Source of the DNA: Agromyces tardus | GTDB taxonomy: Bacteria > Actinomycetota > Actinomycetes > Actinomycetales > Microbacteriaceae | Direction of reading: 5' to 3' | Assembly (NCBI RefSeq): GCF_003710805.1 | Contig: NZ_RHHB01000015.1 | Coordinates: 1 to 64,000 of the forward strand | DNA: 64,000 nt | In this document: in pieces, positions 52,896 through 59,598 of the stretch | Numbering within the stretch: position 1 is the first letter of the stretch | Layout of the letters: each line of letters opens with the position of its first letter | The notes under the pieces: model-generated | The model's input: only the letters and a program-made list of their open reading frames with translations | The model's database searches: none | What the model was told of the DNA's origin: nothing | Translations under genes and position numbers: made by a program

Positions 52896-53064
52896 CGTCG
52901 ACTCCCATCCGTCAGGGCGATTCCCGACGCTTGGGACGGTCGCAGAGCCTCGAGGCGAAGTCAAGGGTCCTCCGACCCATCGCGCGCCGTCCGCTCCACC
53001 CCTCGGGACCTGCCCGACCGGACGTAGGATCGGGACACCACAGCGCTCGCGGGAGATGAGACCG

Positions 53065-53571
53065 ATGCCGAACCACGACCCGGAACGCCTCGCCGAGCTC
53101 GAGGCCGAGCAGCACGAGCTCGTCTTCCCCGCGTTCGATCACGCCGACGCCTGGCGCCTGGGCTGCCGCATCACCGAGACCGCGCTCGAGGCCGAGCACC
53201 CGGTGGTCATCGACATCCGCCGGCCCGGTCTCGTGCTGTTCCGGGCAGCGCTCGCCGGATCGGCCCCCGACCAGGAGGAATGGGTCCGCGGGAAGTCCGC
53301 CGTCGTGTTCCGCATGGACGCGAGCACCGCGCTCGTCGCCGAGCGGCTGGCCGCCCGCGGGATGGACCCGACGCGGGGCTGGCTCCCGTTCCCCGAGTAC
53401 GCCGTCGCGGGCGGGTCGGTGCCCGTGCGGGTCGCGGGTGTCGGCGTCGTGGCCGCCGTGACCGTCTCGGGCCTCGCCTCCGACGATGATCATCGCCTGG
53501 TCGTCGACGGCATGCGCGCGTACCTCGACGAGGTCGCGGGGGCGGATGCCGCGGGCGACGACGGTCGGTGA
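53065..53571 (+). CDS. UPF0303/HbpS-like heme-degrading-domain protein
   Basis: This 168-residue soluble protein matches the UPF0303 group of the GlcG/HbpS fold: LVFPAFDHADAWRLGCRITETALEAEHPVVIDIRRPGLVLFRAALAGSAPDQEEWVRGKSAVV, then GMDPTRGWLPFPEYAVAGGSVPVRVAGVGVVAAVTVSGL. Relatives bind haem or small molecules, but an activity is not established. ATG 53065 follows a GGGAG site; TAGGAT (53025-53030) is the likely -10. It stands 9 nt before the phosphopantetheinyl transferase gene and is cotranscribed with it. Confidence 0.85.
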   Translation: MPNHDPERLAELEAEQHELVFPAFDHADAWRLGCRITETALEAEHPVVIDIRRPGLVLFRAALAGSAPDQEEWVRGKSAVVFRMDASTALVAERLAARGMDPTRGWLPFPEYAVAGGSVPVRVAGVGVVAAVTVSGLASDDDHRLVVDGMRAYLDEVAGADAAGDDGR

Positions 53572-53580
53572 CCCGCGCGC

Positions 53581-54288
53581 GTGACGGGCGTGCGGCTCCG
53601 GTGGGCCCGGCCGACGCCGACCGGCCGTTGGCGCGAGCCCGCGCTGCGGCTGCTCACGACCGACGAGCGGAGGCGCTGGGAGGCGATCCCGTTGCCGGAG
53701 CGGCGTGACCGGTTCCTGCTCGGACGGCTCCTCCTCCGGCAGGCGGCGGCGGAGCTGTGCGGCGTTCCGATCGACGCCGTGCGGGTGCGGGCGGAGTGCC
53801 CTCGCTGCGGGGGGCCGCACGGGCGGCCGACCATCGAGGGCGTGGGCGGCCGCGCGCCGCATGCGAGCCTGTCGTCCACGTCGGGCCTCGTGGTCGCCGC
53901 CGTGCTCCCCGCGGAGCTCGGCACCGCCCTCGGAGTCGATGTGGAGCGGGCATGGCCGGGTCGCGAGCGGCGTGCCGCCATCGACGCACTCCTGCCGCCC
54001 ACTCGGTGGCCGGATGCGGGCGGCGTCTCGCCGCTCCGCCGCTGGACGCGCGCCGAGGCCGTGCTCAAGGCGGACGGACGCGGACTGCGCGTCGAGCCAC
54101 GGCTGGTGTCGGTGCACCGCGTGCGCGGCCGGCTCGTGGCATCCGTCGGCGACGAGCCCGTGCGCTACGACCTCGTCGATCGCCGCATCGGCGGCACCGG
54201 GCGCCTCGGCGGTCTCGGCGGCGGCGCCCGCCGGAGCAACGGAACCGGCGCGATCCTCAGCGTCGCCGTCGCGCGCACCGAGCGGTGA
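53581..54288 (+). CDS. 4'-phosphopantetheinyl transferase (Sfp type)
   Basis: This 235-residue enzyme attaches the phosphopantetheine arm of CoA to carrier-protein serines. It shows the early RDRFLLGRLLLRQAAAEL helix, the CPRCGGPHGRPTI block typical of Sfp-like enzymes, the Mg-binding GVDVER and the WTRAEAVLKADGRGL motif. The GTG start at 53581 is close behind the UPF0303 stop. It converges on the M1 peptidase/Pls-like synthetase pair, whose carrier domain (Ser552) is the obvious substrate. Confidence 0.92.
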   Translation: MTGVRLRWARPTPTGRWREPALRLLTTDERRRWEAIPLPERRDRFLLGRLLLRQAAAELCGVPIDAVRVRAECPRCGGPHGRPTIEGVGGRAPHASLSSTSGLVVAAVLPAELGTALGVDVERAWPGRERRAAIDALLPPTRWPDAGGVSPLRRWTRAEAVLKADGRGLRVEPRLVSVHRVRGRLVASVGDEPVRYDLVDRRIGGTGRLGGLGGGARRSNGTGAILSVAVARTER

Positions 54289-54310
54289 CGCCGGCGCCGC
54301 CGCAGTGACG

Positions 54311-55642
54311 TCAGCGGGGCCCGGCGTGCGGCAGGGCCGGGAGCGCCTTCGCGTGCAGCCAGGCGTCGAAGAGCGGATGCAACGACATCCCGGTGCGCGC
54401 CTCGGCGAGCTCGACGAACTGCGCCGTCGACGCGGTGCCGTGCCGGTGCCGCGTCGTCCAGTCGTGCAGCAGGTCGAAGAACGGGGTGTCGCCGATCGTG
54501 AGCCGCAGCGCGTGCAGCGTGAGCGCGCCGCGCTTGTAGACGCGGTCGTCGAACATGCGAGCCGGGCCGGGGTCGCCGATGACGAGGTCGGCGGGCAGGT
54601 GCGAGAGCGCGACGCGGAACTGGTGCGCGAGGGCGTCGGCGCTCACCGACCCGGATGCCTCCGACCAGATCCACTCCGCGTAGCAGGCGAAGCCCTCGTT
54701 CAGCCAGATGTCGCGCCACGCCCCGATGCCGACGCTGTTGCCGAACCACTGGTGCGCGAGCTCGTGGGCGACGAGCCGCTCCGATCCGCCGCGCCCGTCG
54801 GCGTGGTTCGAGCCGAACACCGCCAGTCCCTGGGCCTCGAGGGGGATCTCGAGCTCGTCGTCGGTCACGACGATCGCGTAGGAGGCCATCGGGTAGGGCC
54901 CGAACGCGCGCTCGAAGACCGCGATCATGCGCGGCACGTCGCCGAAGTCGGCGCGGACCTCGCGCTCGATGCGGCGGGGGAAGGAGACCGTCGTGGGCAC
55001 GTCGGCGGGTGAGAGGTCGAGCGAGGCGTACCGGCCGATCTGCACGGTGACGAGGTAGGTGGAGGTGGGTTCCGGCTGCTCGTAGAGCCAGTGGCCGCGC
55101 CCGCCGGCCGCGTGGTGGCGCGCCAGTCGCCCATTGCAGACCACCCGATACGCGGCATCCGTCTCGACGCGGATGCGGTACGCGGCCTTGTCGCCGGGCG
55201 TGTCGTTGCAGGGGAACCACGTGGGCGCGCCCGACGGCTGCGAGGCCACGAGGAGTCCGTCGTCGAGCTCCTCCCAGCCGAGCTTCCCCCAACGGGTGCG
55301 GCGCGGCTGCGGCGCCCCCGCGTAGTCGACGACGACCTCGAAGGCGTCGCCCTCCGCGAGCGGCGCCTCGGGAGTGACGCGGAGCTTCGTGGCGGTCTGC
55401 CGGAAGGCGGCCCGGCGCCCGCCCACGAGCACCCGTGAGACACGGAGCCCGAGCAGGTCGAGGCTGAAGCGGGCGAGCGGCGCGGTCGCCGTGGCCGCGA
55501 TCGTCGCCGTCGCCGTGAGGCGGTTCGTGGCGATGCGGTACCGCAGGTCGAGGTCGTACGAGCGCGTGCGGTAGCCGCCGTTGCCGCTCGCGGGGAGGTA
55601 GGGGTCGCCCGCGCTCTCCGCGCCGAGGCCGGTCGTCGGCAT
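54311..55642 (-). CDS. M1-family zinc metallopeptidase coupled to the Pls-like synthetase
   Basis: This 443-residue peptidase has an N-terminal beta domain (about 25-225) and a thermolysin-like catalytic domain with VAHELAHQWFGNS (zinc ligands His293, His297, and Glu294) and WLNEGFACYAEW (Glu316). The usual M1 exopeptidase motif GAMEN is replaced by EIPLEAQG, so N-terminal recognition is atypical. There is no signal peptide. Its ATG (55642) overlaps the synthetase TGA as TGATG, so the two are translated together. M1-type enzymes degrade epsilon-poly-lysine in Streptomyces (recalled, not checked here), suggesting this one trims the neighbour's product. Confidence 0.9.
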   Translation of the reverse strand: MPTTGLGAESAGDPYLPASGNGGYRTRSYDLDLRYRIATNRLTATATIAATATAPLARFSLDLLGLRVSRVLVGGRRAAFRQTATKLRVTPEAPLAEGDAFEVVVDYAGAPQPRRTRWGKLGWEELDDGLLVASQPSGAPTWFPCNDTPGDKAAYRIRVETDAAYRVVCNGRLARHHAAGGRGHWLYEQPEPTSTYLVTVQIGRYASLDLSPADVPTTVSFPRRIEREVRADFGDVPRMIAVFERAFGPYPMASYAIVVTDDELEIPLEAQGLAVFGSNHADGRGGSERLVAHELAHQWFGNSVGIGAWRDIWLNEGFACYAEWIWSEASGSVSADALAHQFRVALSHLPADLVIGDPGPARMFDDRVYKRGALTLHALRLTIGDTPFFDLLHDWTTRHRHGTASTAQFVELAEARTGMSLHPLFDAWLHAKALPALPHAGPR

Positions 55643-58600
55643 CAACGGACCCGCACGTGGTAGTCCGCGGTGGACACGACCCGCCACGGCCCGATCGGGT
55701 TGCCGCTCCACCTGCTGCCCACGGGCACCTCCTCGCCGCGCATCACGAGCGACGCGGGTCCGACGGTGGCGTGGGCGCCGATGCGCGCGGCCGGCAGGAT
55801 GACGCTGTGCGGCCCGAGCGTGGCCCCGGCTTCGAGGGTGACGACATCCATGCTCATGATTCGATCATGGAAGAGGTGCGTCTGCACGACGCATCCGCGA
55901 TTCACGGTGGACCCGTCGCCGAGGCGCACGAGATCGGCCTCGGGCAGCCAGTAGCTGTCGCACCACACGCCCCGCCCGATCGAGGCGCCGAGCGTGCGCA
56001 GCCACAGGGCGAGCGCCGGGGTGCCGGCCGCCGACTGCGCGAACCACGGCGCCGCGACCATCTCGGTGAAGGTGTCCGACACCTCGGTGCGCCACACGAA
56101 GCTCGACCACAGCGGGTGCTCGGCGACGCGGATGCGGCCCACGAAGACCCACTTGGCGAGCGACGTGACGGCGGCGGCGACCGCGCCGGCCAGGAGCATG
56201 ACGACGCCGCTGAGCAGGATCGTGGCGATCGGTCCCACCCACGACAACAGCGCCGCGAACGTGAAGAACACGGCGAGCCCGATCCCGCAGGTGACGATGA
56301 CGGGCAGGATGCGGCAGAGCTCCCACAGCCCGCGGGCGACGCGCAGGCCCGGGGTCGGCCGGTACGTGCGGGACTGGTCGCCGGCGACGTTCGCCCGGCG
56401 CAGGCGCATCGGCGGCGACCCGAGCCACGACGACCCCGGCTTGGACTTCACGGGCGCCGCCGAGAGCACCGCGACGAGGGCGTCCCGCGCCACGCGGTGC
56501 CACGGGGCGGCCATCCCCGAGTTGCCCAGGAACGCCCGCTTGCCGATCCGCGCCGGTCCGATGACCATCCACCCGTCCTGCAGCTCGTACGAGGCGACCA
56601 TGGTGTCGTCGGCGAGGAACGCGTGGTCGTCGATCGTGGTCATCGACGGGATCAGCAGCACCGTCGACGCCTCGACGTCGCGGCCGACCTTCGCTCCCAG
56701 CATCCGCAGCCAGATCGGCGTGAAGAGACTCGAGTAGAGCGGGAAGAGCAGGGTGCGCGACGCGTCGAGCAGCCGTTCGGTCGTCCACGCCTGCCAGCCG
56801 ATCCGGCTGCGAACCGGGTGGCGTCCTTCGCGGAGGCCGATCGCGAGCAGGCGCACGAGCACGACGACGCTGCCCGCGAACACGACGCCGGCGAGCAGGG
56901 TGGCGGGCACGAGCCACGCCGCTGCACGCAGCGCCGCCTCGCCGAGGTCGGCGGCGCCCCGCATCCCGAGCGCGATGAGGGCGCCGCCCGCTCCGAAGGC
57001 GACGATCGGCAGCAGGCCGAGGCCGAGGGATGCCGCGGCGTACGCCCACACCCAGCGGGTGCGGCGCGGCGGCTGCACGCGGTCGCGACGCGGCGACGCG
57101 GCCCCGACCCGCTCGGCAGGGGAGCCCGCCCAGTACTGCCCCGACGGCACTCGGCCGAACACGGCGGATCCCGGGCCGATCTCGGCGTACTTGCCGATGC
57201 GGGCTCCGGGCAGGAGCGTGCTGCGAGCGCCCACCGTGCTGTGCGCCCCGATGCGCATGCGTCCGATCCGCACGACGTCGCCGTCGATCCAGTAGCCGGC
57301 GAGGTCGACCTCGGGTTCGACTGCGGCGCCCTCGCCGATGGTGAGCATCCCCGTGACCGGCGGCAGCGTGTGCAGGTCGACGTCGCGGCCGATCGTCGCG
57401 CCGAGCGCGCGGGCGTAGTAGCTCACCCACGGCGCCCCGGCGAGTCCCACGGCGCCGATCTGGTGGGCGATCTGGTCGGCGAGCCACATGCGCATGTGCA
57501 CGGAGCCGCCGCGCGGGTGGTCGCCGGGCTCGACGCCGGCGAGCAGCATCCGCGCGCCGGCGACGGCGATGGCCATCCGCCCGAACGGGGTCACGAACAC
57601 GAGGAGGCCGATGACGAGCAGCCAGAGCGGGATGACGGGGAGGAACGCGAACACGTCGCCGAACCAGGAGAGGACCTGGGTGGCCGTGAGCAGGTAGAGC
57701 AGCCAGCGGACTCCGCTCAGGATGAAGAGCGGCACGCCCGCGAGCGTCTGCAGCCACTGCGTCGAGCGGGGAGTGGGGGCCGCCCGGCTGAACTCGGCGG
57801 CGTCGTGATCGGCCGCCGTCGTGCCGACCCGGGCGTCGAGCTCGGCTGCCATCGCGGCGAGGCGCGGGTAGTCGTAGATGTCGGCGACCGTGAACTCGGG
57901 ATCGCGGACCCGGATGCGGCTCACGAGCTGCGCCGCGGCGAGCGAGCCGCCGCCGAGGTCGAAGAAGCTCGCGTCCGGCCCCGACGCCGGCAACCCGAGC
58001 ACCGCCTGCCACTGCTCGGCGAGCCAGGCGGCTGTCGTGCCGCCCTCGTCGACGATCGGTGCGGCGGATGCCAGTGGCCACGGCAGTGCCGCACGGTCGA
58101 CCTTGCCCGAGGTGCGGGTGGGCAGTTCGTCGACGACGGCGAGGACCGGCACGATCGCCGCCGGCAGCTCCTCGACGAGTCGCGCCCGGGCAGCCGCGGT
58201 GTCGAAGCCCGCCCGGTCGGCGACCGAGAGGTACCCGACGAGCACCTGGTTGCCGGCCTCCGTCCGGCGCACGGCCGCGGCCGCCCCCGTGACGCCGGGA
58301 AGCGCTTGGAGCGCCGCCTCGACCTCGCCGAGCTCGATGCGTCGGCCGCCCACCTTCACCTGGTCGTCGGCCCGGCCCTGGAAGACGAGGCCCGCCGGGT
58401 CGAGCAGCACGAGGTCGCCGCTGCGGTACGCGCGGTCCCACTGCAGTGACGGCAGGGGCGCGTACTTCTCGGCGTCCTTCGCCGGGTCGAGGTACCGGGC
58501 GAGGCCGACGCCGCCGATGATGAGCTCGCCCACCTCGCCGTGCGCCACGGGGTCGCCGGCGCCGTCGACGACGGCGAGGTCCCACCCGTCGAGGGGCAGG

Positions 58601-59598
58601 CCGATGCGCACGGGAGCCGAGCCGTCGAGCAGGGCGGCGCACGCGACGACGGTCGCCTCGGTGGGCCCGTAGGTGTTCCACACCTCGCGGTCGGGCGAGG
58701 CGAGCCGCTCCGCGAGCTCGGGCGGGCAGGCCTCGCCGCCGAAGATGAGCAGGCGCACGTTCTCGAGGGACTCGCCCGGCCAGAGCGCGGCGAGCGTCGG
58801 CACGGTCGAGACGACGGTGATGCCGTGGGTGATGAGCCACGGACCGAGGTCCATGCCCGACCGCACGAGCGAACGCGGGGCCGGCACGAGGCAGGCGCCG
58901 TGGCGCCACGCGAGCCACATCTCCTCGCAGGAGGCGTCGAACGCCACCGACAGGCCGGCGAGCACGCGGTCGCCGGGGCCGAGCGGCGCGCCTTGCAGGA
59001 ACAGGCGGGCCTCCGCGTCGACGAAGGCCGCCGCCGAGCGGTGCGTGACCGCGACGCCCTTGGGGGTGCCCGTCGAGCCCGACGTGAAGATGATCCACGC
59101 GTCGTGCCCGATGTCGGGCGAGGTGACGATCGGCGAGGCGTGGGTGCTCGGGTGGGCGGGCTCGCCGTCGAAGAGGGCGACCGTGCGCGTCGGCGCCGGG
59201 TGCTCGGTGCGCCCGACGAACTCGCCGCTGCCGCCCACCACGCCGACGACGTCGGCCTCGCCGAAGACGAGGTCCGCCCGCTCCTGCGGGTCGTCGGCGT
59301 CCACGGGAACGTACGCCGCGCCGGCCGCCATGATGCCGAGGATCGCGACGTAGAGCTGGCGCGAGCCCGACGGCATCCGCACACCGACGCGATCGCCCGG
59401 GCGCACGCCGGCGGCCGAGAGACGGGCTGCCGACCGCACGACGGCCGCCATGAGCTCCCGGTAGCTCAGCCCGCCCGAGGGGTCCTCGATCGCCGACGAA
59501 TCCGGATGCTCCGCGGCGGTCTGCCGCAGGATGTCGAGGAGCGTGCGCGGCGGCGGGGCAAGCGCCGACCGGTCGAACACCCCGTGGGTCGGATCCAT
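55642..59598 (-). CDS. Pls/PosA-type single-module poly-amino-acid synthetase (NRPS-like)
   Basis: This 1318-residue membrane enzyme is almost the length of Streptomyces epsilon-poly-lysine synthetase. Residues about 20-505 are an adenylation domain (IIFTSGSTGTPKG, NTYGPTEATV, Lys499 in TRTSGK). About 522-590 are a carrier domain (LGGGS, Ser552). Three pairs of membrane helices (about 617-672, 850-920, 1095-1155) alternate with three soluble domains (about 690-840, 925-1075, 1155-1318) that contain hexapeptide-like IGxxA repeats and lack the condensation motif HHxxxDG. Pocket residues read by eye are D221 A222 E225 S264 L284 F286 T309 V317 V318 K499, close to codes for Lys-type residues. GGAG precedes the ATG. 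Confidence 0.9.
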   Translation of the reverse strand: MDPTHGVFDRSALAPPPRTLLDILRQTAAEHPDSSAIEDPSGGLSYRELMAAVVRSAARLSAAGVRPGDRVGVRMPSGSRQLYVAILGIMAAGAAYVPVDADDPQERADLVFGEADVVGVVGGSGEFVGRTEHPAPTRTVALFDGEPAHPSTHASPIVTSPDIGHDAWIIFTSGSTGTPKGVAVTHRSAAAFVDAEARLFLQGAPLGPGDRVLAGLSVAFDASCEEMWLAWRHGACLVPAPRSLVRSGMDLGPWLITHGITVVSTVPTLAALWPGESLENVRLLIFGGEACPPELAERLASPDREVWNTYGPTEATVVACAALLDGSAPVRIGLPLDGWDLAVVDGAGDPVAHGEVGELIIGGVGLARYLDPAKDAEKYAPLPSLQWDRAYRSGDLVLLDPAGLVFQGRADDQVKVGGRRIELGEVEAALQALPGVTGAAAAVRRTEAGNQVLVGYLSVADRAGFDTAAARARLVEELPAAIVPVLAVVDELPTRTSGKVDRAALPWPLASAAPIVDEGGTTAAWLAEQWQAVLGLPASGPDASFFDLGGGSLAAAQLVSRIRVRDPEFTVADIYDYPRLAAMAAELDARVGTTAADHDAAEFSRAAPTPRSTQWLQTLAGVPLFILSGVRWLLYLLTATQVLSWFGDVFAFLPVIPLWLLVIGLLVFVTPFGRMAIAVAGARMLLAGVEPGDHPRGGSVHMRMWLADQIAHQIGAVGLAGAPWVSYYARALGATIGRDVDLHTLPPVTGMLTIGEGAAVEPEVDLAGYWIDGDVVRIGRMRIGAHSTVGARSTLLPGARIGKYAEIGPGSAVFGRVPSGQYWAGSPAERVGAASPRRDRVQPPRRTRWVWAYAAASLGLGLLPIVAFGAGGALIALGMRGAADLGEAALRAAAWLVPATLLAGVVFAGSVVVLVRLLAIGLREGRHPVRSRIGWQAWTTERLLDASRTLLFPLYSSLFTPIWLRMLGAKVGRDVEASTVLLIPSMTTIDDHAFLADDTMVASYELQDGWMVIGPARIGKRAFLGNSGMAAPWHRVARDALVAVLSAAPVKSKPGSSWLGSPPMRLRRANVAGDQSRTYRPTPGLRVARGLWELCRILPVIVTCGIGLAVFFTFAALLSWVGPIATILLSGVVMLLAGAVAAAVTSLAKWVFVGRIRVAEHPLWSSFVWRTEVSDTFTEMVAAPWFAQSAAGTPALALWLRTLGASIGRGVWCDSYWLPEADLVRLGDGSTVNRGCVVQTHLFHDRIMSMDVVTLEAGATLGPHSVILPAARIGAHATVGPASLVMRGEEVPVGSRWSGNPIGPWRVVSTADYHVRVR

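Follow-up and report, generated by a model that had tools for sequence, protein, structure and literature searches.

Does the locus at 53059-59598 of the window (the whole stretch of 64,000 nucleotides of Agromyces tardus DNA analyzed here) encode a synthetase of a cationic isopeptide polymer, which monomer would it join, and do the peptidase and transferase genes beside it belong to the same unit? Based on the family, clade, pocket, gene order, co-inheritance and predicted fold seen here, we put the probability that the locus is an epsilon-poly-L-lysine synthetase unit at about 0.87, with a predicted substrate and product and with putative roles for the transferase and the peptidase. The genes and domains are arranged as follows:

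53059..53571, + strand: HbpS/UPF0303-like protein (PF03928), a neighbor only and not a conserved member
53581..54288, + strand: Sfp-type phosphopantetheinyl transferase, 235 aa, convergent
54311..55642, - strand: M1 metallopeptidase in the PldII position, 443 aa, with TGATG translational overlap; HELAH at 54752-54766
55642..59598, - strand: Pls-type synthetase, 1318 aa, A-T-(TM pair, beta-helix) x3
58063..59574, - strand: adenylation domain, residues 9-512; pocket D221 A222 E225 S264 L284 F286 T309 V317 V318 K499
57841..58026, - strand: thiolation domain, residues 525-586; candidate phosphopantetheine site Ser552
57094..57531, - strand: C1 domain, residues 690-835, of the left-handed beta-helix type; His701 and His743 conserved solely within the Pls clade
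56389..56832, - strand: C2 domain, residues 923-1070; D997 in 18/18 divergent members
55675..56127, - strand: C3 domain, residues 1158-1308; Q1239-x-H1241 in 18/18 divergent members

The original prediction had placed these four genes correctly and had read them as a Pls/PosA-type synthetase with a coupled M1 peptidase and an Sfp-type activator, a reading that is supported here. The synthetase and peptidase genes meet in the letters TGATG, and 22 bases separate the stops of the convergent transferase and peptidase genes, near which neither a terminator nor a promoter was found. The synthetase scores 712.6 bits with the Pls/PosA family model TIGR02353 (NCBIfam; cut-off 423.1), whose terminal domain spans about residues 616-1302 of a query lacking residue 1. 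Pfam recognizes AMP-binding (25-368), PP-binding (525-586, GGGS552) and a hexapeptide stretch, with no match to a condensation or thioesterase domain at E ≤ 0.001, which confirms the proposed 1318-residue A-T protein devoid of both. Among PDB sequences, 7wew (Epsilon-poly-L-lysine synthase) scores highest with the synthetase at 630 bits, the next best reaching 393, and the alignment to S. albulus Pls suggested with the original prediction gives an A domain identity to 7wew of 65.4% (seven divergent Pls/PosA proteins, 37-42%). In a tree of 25 sequences, which includes these seven divergent proteins with complete A domains and leaves other proven homopolymer enzymes outside, the window protein and 7wew belong to one clade of 18 sequences (bootstrap 98). 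The family score and the gene arrangement are far beyond chance, and none of the in silico comparisons named beforehand as able to overturn the prediction spoke against it.

The pocket, formerly aligned by eye, had been read correctly: DAESLFTVVK differs from the DAESLVTVVK of 7wew in one residue of ten, Phe replacing Val at GrsA position 301. An alignment of 111 sequences, comprising the window, 80 named loci and 30 further loci, contains this code 98 times, DAESVFTVVK 12 times and DAESFFTVVK once. According to the available part of a study of PosA (PMC10522769), the acidic third pocket position binds the side-chain amine and the second code position tracks the chain length of the substrate, being Ala in Pls, Met in the ornithine enzyme and Phe in the diaminopropionate/diaminobutyrate enzymes. 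Lysine would thus be the expected monomer, since nine of ten pocket residues are those of 7wew and the code is the commonest of the relatives; the Ala at the second position, as in Pls, also makes it our best guess, in preference to diaminobutyrate. It is very unlikely that the same machine instead takes another diamino acid (ornithine, diaminobutyrate or beta-lysine) through a pocket reshaped by Phe301. This residue does depart from 7wew, no tested enzyme with the Phe301 variant was identified in a comparison that left the code of the C. variabile enzyme outside, and the excerpted literature lists ornithine, diaminopropionate, diaminobutyrate and beta-lysine as substrates known in the family; however, the position held responsible for chain length carries the Ala of Pls, the pockets quoted for the ornithine enzyme (DMEHNGTVSK) and the beta-lysine enzyme (DGESISVVNK) differ, as do those of the seven divergent members whose A domain is complete (DMEHIMTVTK, DLEDIVTVVK and others), and the clade groups with Pls. 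The cationic product first envisaged is therefore retained in its epsilon-poly-lysine-like form, on the strength of the A domain identity and the pocket Ala, whereas its poly-diaminobutyrate-like form is not favored.

In the genus of the window organism, two of six genomes hold an over-cut-off synthetase, and three Microbacteriaceae genomes of one genus (G071, G134, G187) have two apiece. The Pls/PosA family was also observed on 70 plasmid records (E ≤ 1e-5). Mycobacterium avium plasmids (H7-H10) carry an annotated Pls/PosA synthetase with ~57% identity to the C-terminal part of the window protein, and on a Skermanella rosea plasmid (L134, 917-6447) the diaminobutyrate transaminase gene ectB directly precedes a Pls/PosA synthetase with the pocket DFECIVVVTK, an arrangement that suggests a poly-diaminobutyrate locus.

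An epsilon-poly-lysine type locus may also be silent, because no product was detectable in cultures of C. variabile, where the Pls protein also went undetected (PMC8117764, in the part available). That the window locus is such a silent or decayed one, giving no product in this organism, has a very slight chance in our estimate: the synthetase frame is open throughout and every motif examined is intact. Judged by its sequence, the locus appears to be a genuine, intact and ordinary one of the epsilon-poly-lysine type.

The second gene of the unit was predicted to encode a TGATG-coupled M1 peptidase without GAMEN, and it does. The window protein scores 89.2 bits with PF01433 and contains HELAH (293-297) and a distal E316, with H293, E294, H297 and E316 present in 81/81 sequences; in place of GAMEN stand EIP[LIV]EA-type letters (window EIPLEAQG), whose Glu, E269 in the window, is likewise kept in 81/81. 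An M1 gene follows the synthetase gene in the same orientation in all 80 named loci and stands beside it in all 40 sampled Microbacteriaceae, a sample picked by hand down a ranking from 117 synthetase genomes (G052, whose contig ends within 2 kb, was dropped). It also adjoins the Pls gene of a Kitasatospora plasmid, by the record's own annotation. The peptidase frame begins 271-2071 bases past the synthetase stop in five named loci, those of Tsukamurella and Williamsia (L058, L059, L067, L068, L085), which for that reason lack coupling; in the rest it begins within 100 bases or overlaps. In S. albulus, the sources as far as available describe pldII as translationally coupled to pls and PldII as a polymer-degrading enzyme located outside the membrane. 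The window peptidase agrees with PldII in position and family only, and no signal peptide was evident by eye in it or in the N-termini of ten relatives. A peptidase of the PldII type would cut the polymer for self-protection and perhaps for trimming. The peptidase-controlled chain length of the original prediction is disputed in print: reviews and introductions, in the passages available, state that chains stayed in the 25-35 range after Pld and PldII were inactivated, whereas CRISPRi repression of pldII shifted the length distribution, with chains over 40 (PMC9223678, likewise in part).

The convergent gene was proposed to encode a phosphopantetheinyl transferase. Although the window protein falls just short of the Pfam ACPS cut-off (24.3 bits against 25), four of the five same-place relatives scanned exceed it (41-55 bits; the fifth, 22.4), and the window protein contains GVDVE and WTRAEAVLK, which we take to be the Sfp-type motifs GVDxE and WxxxEAxxK; D120, W155, E159, A160 and K163 are found in 39/39 sequences. 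The proposal is upheld by these motifs and relatives. The transferases also share a CxxC...HG stretch in their N-terminal half (window 53581-53823; C73 in 39/39, C76 in 38, H80 and G81 in 39), which looks like a metal site.

Does this transferase belong to the synthetase? Of the 80 named loci, 38 have a related Sfp-type gene close to the synthetase gene (37 convergent, one upstream), and the 42 others comprise 36 from genera that we assign to the Nocardia-Rhodococcus-Mycobacterium group and six more, one of which (L071) ends soon after the peptidase. In the sampled Microbacteriaceae the transferase adjoins the peptidase in 34/40, and in some synthetase genomes without a neighboring copy (e.g. 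G286, G007, G191) it is located elsewhere. Co-occurrence across the family, a check suggested with the original prediction, was scored in 299 Microbacteriaceae genomes with a profile of 14 synthetase-linked transferases (presence at E ≤ 1e-8, at most ten candidates scored per genome). Both genes were found in 115 genomes, the synthetase only in two, the transferase only in 15 and neither in 167, so that the transferase is present in 115/117 synthetase-bearing genomes (four of which, G076, G219, G250 and G285, have only broken or partial synthetase genes) and in 15/182 others.

The same dependence holds within genera. Across the 22 genera containing both kinds of genome, 47 genomes have both genes, none the synthetase only, nine the transferase only and 49 neither, the match being perfect in 16 genera (stratified exact p 4.5e-15); this per-genus table may lack up to seven synthetase-free genomes, as seven genomes without a TIGR02353 match are unlisted. 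An accidental position beside the peptidase, with the transferase acting on other carrier proteins, is unlikely. It would account for the 15 of 182 genomes that have the transferase but no over-cut-off synthetase and for the 42 named loci without one nearby, but not easily for its presence in all 47 synthetase genomes of the mixed genera and its absence from 49 of their 58 others, nor for an independent pairing with Pls/PosA in three of ten plasmid regions (Sphingomonas, Rhizobium, Shinella). In Microbacteriaceae, then, the transferase is inherited with the synthetase. The neighboring transferase need not be the sole activator, because another Sfp-like candidate, of weaker score (C24, E 5.6e-21), is encoded in the window genome.

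The fourth member once considered, the UPF0303/HbpS gene, is real (PF03928) but was rejected as part of the cassette: phmmer gave no match at E ≤ 1e-3 among open frames of at least 80 aa beside any of the 80 named loci, some of which stop before 6 kb. In the window (53059-53580), 9 bases separate the HbpS-like gene from the transferase gene on the same strand, so the two may be co-transcribed here even though they are not a conserved pair. No clean empty site was seen in three same-genus genomes with a strong match to both flanking neighbors (G142, G240, G280); as the alpha/beta hydrolase on the left and PspA on the right are non-adjacent there, insertion limits cannot be drawn for the cassette.

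The three hexapeptide-like domains noticed between the membrane helices are real and homologous by profile comparison (probability 99.9 for C3/C1 and 99.6 for C3/C2). An AlphaFold2 model of residues 600-1318 built from 64 aligned sequences has a pLDDT of 83.1 and a pTM of 0.88. The first match listed for C3 is to the maltose/galactoside O-acetyltransferases (Z 7.0, rmsd 3.3, 144 aligned), below the tool's clear level and in the range where it warns of common arrangements. H1241 lies in the loop of the acetyltransferase catalytic His, yet the alignment with galactoside acetyltransferase has a gap there. A set of 18 divergent sequences, drawn from both actinobacteria and alphaproteobacteria, was compared. 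All 18 have Q1239, H1241 and M1286 in C3 as well as D997 in C2, and 17 have D1245 of C3; the sole family-wide histidine of the three domains is thus in C3, and the positions aligned to it in C1 and C2 are Tyr in the window protein. The C1 histidines were also considered as the family-wide base. H743 (111/111) and H701 (110/111) are near-invariant in the Pls clade, but the divergent set keeps them in only 10/18 and 9/18, and they were ruled out because of this; they may matter for Pls.

A pseudo-threefold beta-helix model of the C-terminal part is already in print for PosA (PMC10522769, as far as available). With the arrangement seen here, the unit might work as follows. The transferase would place phosphopantetheine on Ser552 of the T domain, and the A domain would adenylate L-lysine and pass it to the carrier arm. 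The three membrane-anchored beta-helix domains would fold as one pseudo-threefold acyltransferase, in which a free lysine, or an oligomer, attacks the thioester with its side-chain amine, once per residue added, and the product would be released after each round. The free acceptor and the release after each round follow one review's account of S. albulus Pls, in the part available.

We further propose, at about even odds, that Pls-type synthetases are one-chain fused acetyltransferase-like trimers in which the carrier-arm aminoacyl thioester replaces acyl-CoA, that a single centre survives, His1241 with Gln1239, facing Asp997 of C2, and that in Micrococcales the synthetase, peptidase and transferase travel as a self-sufficient polycation cassette. 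A mutational study of these synthetase domains, cited by several papers, was reportedly published by Kito in 2013, and the C3 histidine may therefore already be known. A figure legend in one later paper, of which part was available, marks conserved residues from that mutational study. The single family-wide C3 histidine would nevertheless offer a one-residue handle on isopeptide bond formation, possibly one already known.

The closest known system is S. albulus Pls (7wew for the A domain), which shares the A-T organization, the three membrane-anchored tandem domains, the A domain and pocket likeness noted above and, in the available sources, a directly downstream, overlapping peptidase gene. 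It differs in having Val where the window protein has Phe at position 301 and in the convergent Sfp-type transferase, which the same sources do not mention for S. albulus. C. variabile Pls, of the same architecture and with a peptidase operon, makes epsilon-poly-lysine in S. coelicolor; this enzyme is proven, whereas those of Brevibacterium, Arthrobacter, Microbacterium and others are assigned by sequence. These coryneform systems resemble the window locus in architecture, peptidase operon and host group, again with no mention of the transferase in the part available (all PMC8117764). Epsilon-poly-lysine clusters of Agrococcus, Microbacterium and Leifsonia, reported on bioinformatic grounds, share the host family and synthetase architecture with the window, but the available text leaves a transferase undiscussed (PMC12067966). 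The delta-poly-L-ornithine synthetase PosA has the TIGR02353 architecture and the modeled beta-helix in common with the window protein, but uses ornithine, reads the DMEHNGTVSK pocket and is encoded in a single-gene operon (PMC10522769, in part).

Pls loci in Microbacteriaceae (Microbacterium, Agrococcus, Leifsonia) are thus already in print (PMC8117764, PMC12067966, each seen in part), and the synthetase with its coupled peptidase is already known. A synthetase-transferase linkage was not found in a literature search to which most subscription papers were out of reach, and the activator inherited with the synthetase adds modestly to this picture, in a way open to test. As epsilon-poly-lysine is used commercially as an antimicrobial, a further intact locus of this type, in bacteria that are easy to grow, is of practical use. 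If expression in a foreign host fails, the lack of the co-inherited transferase would be a concrete explanation, and one with a simple remedy.
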